Shown here piece by piece: positions 25,462 to 64,000 of a stretch of DNA of 64,000 nucleotides. The stretch covers positions 31,651 to 95,650 of the forward strand of contig NVUH01000009.1 in NCBI GenBank assembly GCA_002401855.1, read 5' to 3'. This DNA is from Hyphomicrobiales bacterium. Lineage in GTDB: Bacteria > Pseudomonadota > Alphaproteobacteria > Rhizobiales > OSC116. Position 1 is the first letter of the stretch; each line of letters opens with the position of its first letter. The notes under the pieces were generated by a model. The model was not told the origin of the DNA. It ran no database searches and saw only the letters and a program-made list of their open reading frames with translations. The position numbers and the translations under genes were made by a program.

Positions 25462-25551
25462 TGTGGCTCTTTATCTGTTGCGGTTAAGGGTTTATAGTTA
25501 ATAAATCTGTTGCGGATGAAGGTTTATAGTTAATAAGTTTGTTGAGAATGA

Positions 25552-44944: not shown

Positions 44945-46123
44945 GTGAAAAAACTGCTTAGCGGCTTGATAAGCCTTATAATATTTATTGCCATTGGTGC
45001 CACAGGCGCTGGCTTTTTCGTCAATAGTAAATCGTTAGAAATGGCCGATCAAGCCATTGATGGGCTTAAGGCTGAAGGTTACGAACTAAGCGGTTATGAA
45101 AGCTTAGAAATTGATTATTTTGACCAAAGCGCCAGCCTGAAAAATTTGATCATTGAAGGCAGCGGGCAAGATTTTAAGCTTAAAATCGGCGAGCTTAAGC
45201 TTGAAGGCATTGACCCAATTAGTGATTTTTCGATCTATATTGAAAACTCGATACTTAGTGATATTGAGGTAACGTTTGAGGGGCTGGATTATCAAATTAA
45301 AAACATCACGGCCAATGGCTTAAAAACCACATATCAACCTCATTTTGAGCGGATGTTAGCTGCACAGAATGATGCCGAAAAAATTAAAATTTTGCATGAA
45401 GAGTTGAGTTATAATGGCTTGTCTTTTACCGAATTTATGATGCGTGACAAAGTGGGCAATGTCAGCCGTGTGGCAGATGGCAGCTATGATAAACAAGCAT
45501 TGTTTAACAATTTGCCTAGTCAATGGCGGGCGCATTTAACGGGTTTGGAAATTAACCAAGCCCACCTACCCGCTGAAACGGCACAATTGTTAAAAGACTA
45601 TAAATTGGAAGATTTGAACGGGATTTTGGATGTTAGCTTTGACTATCATAGTGAAAACCGCACGGCTTTGTTTGCGATTAACAACTTAAATTTTGGCGGT
45701 TTGGCTAATTTACAATCGGAGATTTTGCTTTCAATGACTGACCAGCATTTTGCTGAACTTTATGACTTTGATCAATTTGAACATGTTTTAGATGCATTGC
45801 CAATTGAGCATGCTGAACTGACTTATGAAGATTTTGGCCTGTATAATTATTTTGTGGCGCAACAAGCGCCTAAGATGGAGTTGACTGAAACTGTGCTAAA
45901 ATCCCAAATATTCTTTGGGTTGGCGTTGATTTCGGCGCAGGTGACTGATTTAGATCGGCGCTCAGAGTTGGCAAATCCACTATCGGATTTTTTGCAAAAC
46001 CCAGCTGGGTTGAGAATTGAGTTTTCGCCCGCCAAACCCGTGCGGTTTCAGCAGTATTTGAATGTTTATGATGCCAATGTGCTGGTGCGGGATTTAAATC
46101 CTAGCATCACTTACATTAAATAA
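44945..46123 (+). CDS. hypothetical secreted/membrane-anchored protein (GTG start)
   Basis: N-terminal hydrophobic anchor, 392 aa continuous ORF, no recognised family. Confidence 0.7.
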   Translation: MKKLLSGLISLIIFIAIGATGAGFFVNSKSLEMADQAIDGLKAEGYELSGYESLEIDYFDQSASLKNLIIEGSGQDFKLKIGELKLEGIDPISDFSIYIENSILSDIEVTFEGLDYQIKNITANGLKTTYQPHFERMLAAQNDAEKIKILHEELSYNGLSFTEFMMRDKVGNVSRVADGSYDKQALFNNLPSQWRAHLTGLEINQAHLPAETAQLLKDYKLEDLNGILDVSFDYHSENRTALFAINNLNFGGLANLQSEILLSMTDQHFAELYDFDQFEHVLDALPIEHAELTYEDFGLYNYFVAQQAPKMELTETVLKSQIFFGLALISAQVTDLDRRSELANPLSDFLQNPAGLRIEFSPAKPVRFQQYLNVYDANVLVRDLNPSITYIK

Positions 46124-46144
46124 ACTAGTTTATTTAATGTAAGT
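46109..46144. repeat. perfect 36 bp palindrome ACTTACATTAAATAAACTAGTTTATTTAATGTAAGT
   Basis: 18 bp arms centred on CTAG; overlaps stop codon of 44945-46123. Confidence 0.95.
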
Positions 46145-46150
46145 ATTTTC

Positions 46151-46335
46151 ACGCCCACCTTTCGGTGGGCTAGTGGCCCCTGCGGGCGCAACACATCCGT
46201 GTTGCTTGCTAAGCCACTCAGCCGCTGGTCAGCGGTAAAATCACCACCCAACCTAACCGCATTACGCTTAGTGAGCTAGAGTTTACCGAAGCTCTGAGTA
46301 TCGGTGATATACTGAAATTCTGCGTGCTTGGCATT
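46151..46335 (+). repeat. dispersed structured intergenic element, copy 1
   Basis: cgcccacctttcggtgggctagtggcccctgcgggcgc...cttgctaagccactcagccgctggtc shared with 63822-64000. Confidence 0.9.
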
Positions 46336-46346
46336 AGCATTAAAAA

Positions 46347-46376
46347 AAAGCCCCATTGCGGATGCAATGGGGCTTT
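46347..46376 (-). terminator. intrinsic terminator of aspS
   Basis: aaagccccattgc-ggat-gcaatggggcttt; minus-strand U-run. Confidence 0.85.
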
Positions 46377-59655: not shown

Positions 59656-59875
59656 TAATATCGCTCGCGGCTATTTTTTGCTGCGCAAAAGCCTACGCGG
59701 GTGCGCCACAGTAGTGGCGGGCTCCAATCCGCCTGCTCACCAAGGAATTGGCTCGTATGTGAGTTCTATATCGCTCGCGGCTATTTTTTGCGGCGCAAAA
59801 GCCTACGCGGGTGCGCCACATAAGTGGCGGGCTCCAATCCGCCTGCTTACCAATGAATTGGCTCGTGTATGAGTA
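59656..59875 (+). repeat. tandem duplication of a 110 bp hairpin-rich intergenic unit
   Basis: tatcgctcgcggctattttttgc.gcgcaaaagcctacgcgggtgcgccac...ggcgggctccaatccgcctgct appears twice with 110 bp offset. Confidence 0.93.
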
Positions 59876-63748: not shown

Positions 63749-63821
63749 GCGGCGGTAGTGTCAATGTTGATGGAGATTTAGAAAGTTAGCTGTACTGCCT
63801 ATACTCGGGTACTTCATTTTT

Positions 63822-64000
63822 ACGCCCACCTTCGGTGGGCTAGTGGCCCCTGCGGGCGCACGCCTCCGCGTGCTTGCTAAGCCACTCAGCCGCTGGTCGC
63901 AGGCAAATTCACCACCCAATCTAACCTCATTACGCTTAGATAGCGAGAATTTGCCGAACCTCTGCATTTCAGTGCGCCCAACAAATTCTGAATTTGCTGC
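63822..64000 (+). repeat. dispersed structured intergenic element, copy 2 (may continue past window)
   Basis: Aligns with 46151-46335 over most of its length. Confidence 0.88.

Follow-up and report, generated by a model that had tools for sequence, protein, structure and literature searches.

A high-copy, apparently undescribed repeat occupies intergenic sites downstream of genes in a small group of marine bacteria belonging to one genus, and we interpret it as probably a lineage-specific, non-autonomous foldback element operating at the DNA level, of the MITE/BIME-like mosaic kind. The repeat was shown to consist of one inverted, hairpin-rich arm chassis enclosing an exchangeable core, and sister species keep the same intergenic sites filled, often with a different, inverted or unrelated core. 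An earlier note on a 64,000-nucleotide stretch of DNA (hereafter the window, i.e. positions 31651-95650 of contig C43, a 95,650 bp contig at whose end the window stops) had described two copies and read them as either a mobile repeat (REP/MITE-like) or a structured RNA; the MITE-like part of this reading is favoured here, whereas a REP of the RAYT type and a structured-RNA core are not.

Copies, taxonomic range and anatomy of the repeat

The close likeness of the two window copies was confirmed, with 87% identity between 46151-46295 and 63822-63965 (E 1.6e-42), and within the window the 20-mer probes tested matched only at these two copies, for an expectation of 0 by chance in shuffled sequence. 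Copy 2, previously delimited at 63822-64000, is real but incomplete, the contig and the window both ending there. The proviso that just two copies might exist was overturned by a search of the whole assembly of origin (3,083,653 bases in 50 contigs; a 3.08 Mb alphaproteobacterial MAG of the OCS116 cluster), which returned 51 matches; at least 70 sites were obtained once arm and 3'-module queries were added and nearby matches merged, a search-based count over the scored candidates and hence a lower bound. Site density in this genome (G000) was uneven between contigs C2, C4 and C12 and contig C43, with about 10 sites in 70 kb of C2 and 2 in the 96 kb of C43.

Among the 61 genomes searched, the repeat was detected in its own genome and in three of the five congeners (four of the six genomes of the genus), and in none of the 55 genomes representing the order's other genera. 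A pattern scan of public genomes located it in the MAGs NORP194, NORP83 (named 'OCS116 cluster bacterium') and DT_99, to which our genomes G005, G002 and G001, taken as a set, probably correspond, as suggested by matching sequence. Single 18-mer matches also occurred in unrelated organisms, with similarity that did not extend past the 18-mer; a viral contig and three unrelated genomes of this kind had dissimilar surroundings and were set aside as looking like chance. Phage and plasmid collections searched with a full unit gave no match, and the literature searched for the repeat yielded no description of it.

The features of the two window copies, and of a second core found at other loci, are the following:

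46110-46143, no strand assigned: perfect 34-bp palindrome, terminator-like, followed by TATTTTC; directly 5' of copy 1 and outside the repeat
46151-46210, + strand: left arm of copy 1, with three hairpins; this arm recurs inverted at the right end of full units
46153-46170: hairpin GCCCACC-TTTC-GGTGGGC of the copy 1 left arm
46176-46187: hairpin GCCC-CTGC-GGGC of the copy 1 left arm, between the other two and absent from the earlier note
46188-46205: hairpin GCAACAC-ATCC-GTGTTGC of the copy 1 left arm
46211-46332, + strand: core I of copy 1 (AAGCCACTCAGCCGCTGGT...), 3'-truncated (nhmmer alignment end at 46332)
46344-46375, no strand assigned: terminator-like stem after aspS (AAAAAAAAGCCCCATTGC..GCAATGGGGCTTT), abutted by the right end of copy 1
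63764-63823, + strand: outer arm of copy 2, CTCGGGTACTTCATTTTT type
63824-63878, + strand: left arm of copy 2, with GCCCACC-TTC-GGTGGGC, GCCC-CTGC-GGGC and GCACGC-CTCC-GCGTGC (the last at 63858-63873)
63879-64000, + strand: core I of copy 2, cut by the contig end
L166:1850-2060, L172:1830-2280, L106:5269-5480 and L090:1740-1870: core II (...CATTTCAGTGAGTGCG...CCGCTGCCG...AACGCGCGG...), with no Rfam match

Copy 1 has neither the 3' module nor the right arm found in full units, and a stem resembling the one that it abuts is also present at element-free aspS sites. The 34-bp palindrome reaches into the final codons of the preceding gene (ORF 44945-46123 plus stop); it is formed by the end of this gene and an inverted copy of it, and the sister species finish the gene with other codons. 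The window further contains two direct repeats of 107 nt (59658-59874; 110 nt apart, 93% identical) and a tandem pair of a 32-nt unit (25473-25536; 91% identical).

Full units measure about 300-450 bp and comprise an outer inverted repeat, hairpin-rich arms and a central core, and they are found single or in tandem. The outer inverted repeat (CTCTGGAAGTTTGCA...TGCAAACTTCCAGAG, also given as CTCTGGAAG...CTTCCAGAG) delimits a unit of 290-440 bp in most cases, and another arm type carries GGCACTGCGTGCG. The left arm and the inverted right arm are built from one pool of small hairpin modules (GCACTGCGTGCG..., GCCCACC-loop-GGTGGGC, GCCC-CTGC-GGGC, GAGAGC..GCGAACG and others), with core I and a 3' module (GTCCGAAGCC...GTTAGGCG) sitting between the arms. 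Core II is unrelated to core I, yet it has the same arms and lies at the same kind of sites. As a class, left and right arms are complementary (mean duplex energy of about -71 kcal/mol), and cognate arm pairs are no more complementary than arms taken from different copies (p 0.40); the arms therefore act as interchangeable inverted modules, and a long closing stem joining the left with the right arm was ruled out. A decayed protein gene was likewise rejected as the nature of the core: one frame has few stops, yet it is interrupted by a stop in 19 of 76 copies, and the best frame showed no third-position excess of variation. The repeat shares with MITEs its terminal inverted repeats (outer repeat and inverted arms), non-coding content, short length and high copy number, and with intergenic mosaics (BIME/RIME-like, in a descriptive sense) its palindromic modules that vary in combination and orientation.

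Pairing in the arms and in the core

The local hairpins described earlier are present where reported (46153-46170, 46188-46205 and 63858-63873), and the compensatory change proposed for the 46188-46205 hairpin extends well beyond two copies. Across many copies, no fewer than nine distinct stems with perfect pairing (GCACGC/GCGTGC, GCTTGC/GCAAGC, GCGATAC/GTATCGC, GCAACAC/GTGTTGC, GCGATGC/GCATCGC, GCGAAC/GTTCGC, GCAAAC/GTTTGC, GCGGTGC/GCACCGC and GTGGGATG/CATCCCAC) all surround a near-constant NTCC-like loop, and these stem changes are true compensation. Pairing is not obligatory, since an unpaired allele is the commonest at this position in the main arm type (96 of 134). Replacement of the whole stem in this way may reflect selection on the hairpin, or template-switch correction and module exchange.

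The second apparently covarying helix, a long-range stem CGGTAAA/TTTACCG, did not survive a larger alignment. It is literally there in copy 1, but only 2 of 137 copies are fully paired in the copy 1 form and 3 of 137 in the copy 2 form. Its cells were paired in 75.7% of cases against 75.4% with shuffled partners, which is no excess, and the small excess seen for the copy 2 form in the 137-copy set (71.2 versus 68.7% in shuffles) matches what linked sequence blocks would be expected to produce. This long-range pairing is a coincidence. The core gave a similar picture: the consensus fold of 59 aligned copies reached -1.1 kcal/mol, with four pairs of which none was compensated, the top mutual-information pairs among 137 copies were mostly neighbours in linked blocks and not Watson-Crick, and single-sequence core folds were just mildly better than those of shuffles.

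Gene context and occupancy of the same sites in sister species

Using a simple open-reading-frame caller, 51 element clusters were assigned to convergent, 44 to tandem and 3 to divergent contexts, with a few more distant, in counts that pool species and so include orthologous sites more than once; for comparison, the baseline of neighbour pairs in the window was 10 convergent and 10 divergent. Within tandem contexts, the core runs in the same direction as the genes in 20 cases and opposite in 24, a random orientation with respect to the genes. A terminator-like inverted repeat immediately precedes several copies, as the palindrome at 46110-46143 does for copy 1.

Downstream of aspS, the site of copy 1, two congeners (L124, L126) have just a short spacer that contains a terminator-like stem and no element, at a divergence too great to fix exact ends, and elements are present in the window's species, NORP194 and NORP83, with a content that differs in each. 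The NORP83 assembly holds two element arrangements at this site (L042, L052), which fits the coexistence of several strains in that MAG. A paper on NORP83 (PMC9426424) reports that homologous recombination among its strains is low and that the number of transposase copies shifts. Between the window's species and NORP194, the two closest species, all of the ~10 sites examined from either side were occupied, none of them being a clean empty site, in a sample biased to occupied core I sites because the NORP194 loci were picked by exact 18-mer. No target-site duplication was established, as close relatives offer no clean empty site.

Identity within these shared sites drops from flanks to cores, with medians of 92.6% and 82%, respectively, over 23 syntenic core comparisons, two of which (identities 0.41 and 0.44) are probably out of register owing to indels. 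In only 5 of the 23 did the ortholog turn out to be the nearest copy in NORP194; in another 5 its rank among 62 was 22nd or lower, and cores were inverted in 2. At the site of copy 2, NORP194 carries core II beside the same flanking gene.

Rival readings and relation to known repeat families

A dispersed family of structured non-coding RNAs, transcribed, functional as RNA and with its fold under selection, would accommodate the many compensated stems of the local hairpins as well as the fold of the copy 2 left arm (-31.1 kcal/mol, z -2.8). We consider it very unlikely, as the conserved core has neither a consensus fold nor Watson-Crick covariation, orientation is random with respect to genes, the commonest arm allele is unpaired, and the comparison with Rfam (15) suggested earlier gave no match in the window and none of relevance in ten full-unit loci at relaxed E-values. 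An IscB/TnpB guide RNA and a group II intron, likewise considered as identities, also had no Rfam support. The covarying short hairpins are explained equally well by DNA-level processes and do not imply that the core yields a folded RNA. Host-domesticated bidirectional terminators or boundary elements, selected at fixed sites between genes, would agree with the strong bias to 3' ends and convergent pairs, with positions conserved in sister species, with hairpin pairing kept despite sequence change and with the several copies placed directly after a terminator-like stem. This reading is nevertheless unlikely: selection against promoter insertions would give the same 3'-end bias, two congeners have no element at the aspS site, and a U-run is mostly missing after the arm hairpins.

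Mobilisation as a REP/BIME by a RAYT (Y1 transposase) is highly improbable, despite the short palindromes, intergenic location, high copy number and mosaic layout that recall such elements. The units are 300-450 bp long with terminal inverted repeats, against 20-40 bp, and the REP-associated transposase that the earlier note proposed to look for (PF01797) had no match in any element-bearing genome (G000, G001, G002 and G005), its three matches lying in G004, where no element copy was detected. The partner search covered four transposase families in incomplete assemblies, among which DDE_3 (IS630 type) was absent, while DDE_Tnp_1 and IS1595-type genes were rejected as partners, being few and without arm sequence. 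Neither arm nor core sequence was matched at the transposase loci found, and no gene-bearing (autonomous) unit was recognised among the fetched loci.

The earlier proposal of a non-autonomous mobile repeat, by contrast with these rivals, fits a family that is dispersed, high-copy and non-coding, has inverted terminal arms and is absent at aspS in two congeners. We place it as a new lineage-specific family among the intergenic mosaic/MITE-like repeats already known from bacteria. BIMEs and Rhizobium intergenic mosaic elements (RIME) are mosaics of short palindromes in variable order and orientation, located in intergenic regions after genes. The present repeat is also a palindrome mosaic after genes, a likeness drawn for RIME by description, but it differs in its long core, its outer inverted repeat and the lack of a RAYT. 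It resembles bacterial MITEs and small mobile repeats (Correia/NEMIS, RUP, ERIC, YPAL/RU-2, CIR; PMC2229807) in being non-coding, intergenic, dispersed, genus-restricted and equipped with inverted repeats, whereas it is longer (300-450 bp) and carries nested hairpin modules that can be exchanged as well as two or more unrelated cores; neither a target duplication nor a partner insertion sequence was found for it in the loci and transposase families covered. YPAL was reported to insert in or beside dyad symmetries (PMC2229807), and several copies of the present repeat similarly adjoin terminator-like stems. CGTC-tagged palindromic repeats are short palindromes with no dedicated transposase, some of which lie grouped in intergenic mosaics (PMC3733652); by description, they differ from our repeat in size and anatomy.

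As a MITE-like mosaic, the family would have spread by transposition, with a transposase since lost or unrecognised. Most simply, its insertions would be old, would by now have become fixed at their sites and would change mainly by exchange between copies. Recombination and gene conversion through the shared arms of dispersed copies may swap and flip the cores, conversion being suggested by the mosaic pattern of identity. Hairpin pairing could be kept through help in ending or insulating transcription between neighbouring genes, or by quasipalindrome (template-switch) correction restoring one arm from the other. It is also conceivable, but quite unlikely, that the sites are fixed post-gene 'slots' for exchangeable cassettes, in which the arms would provide common recombination ends, the hairpins would be recognised, and a dedicated activity rather than chance homology would swap and invert cores among more than 70 addresses.

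Taken as a whole, the initial observation is partly confirmed and its interpretation partly supported; one of its two apparent covarying helices was gone at 137 copies, illustrating that 'covariation' between two copies can mislead. The repeat may also explain assembly breaks, copy 2 lying at a contig end. For the uncultured bacteria of the OCS116 cluster, our results document an apparently undescribed high-copy repeat family, whose fixed sites with turning-over contents offer a natural case for studying sequence exchange among dispersed repeats.
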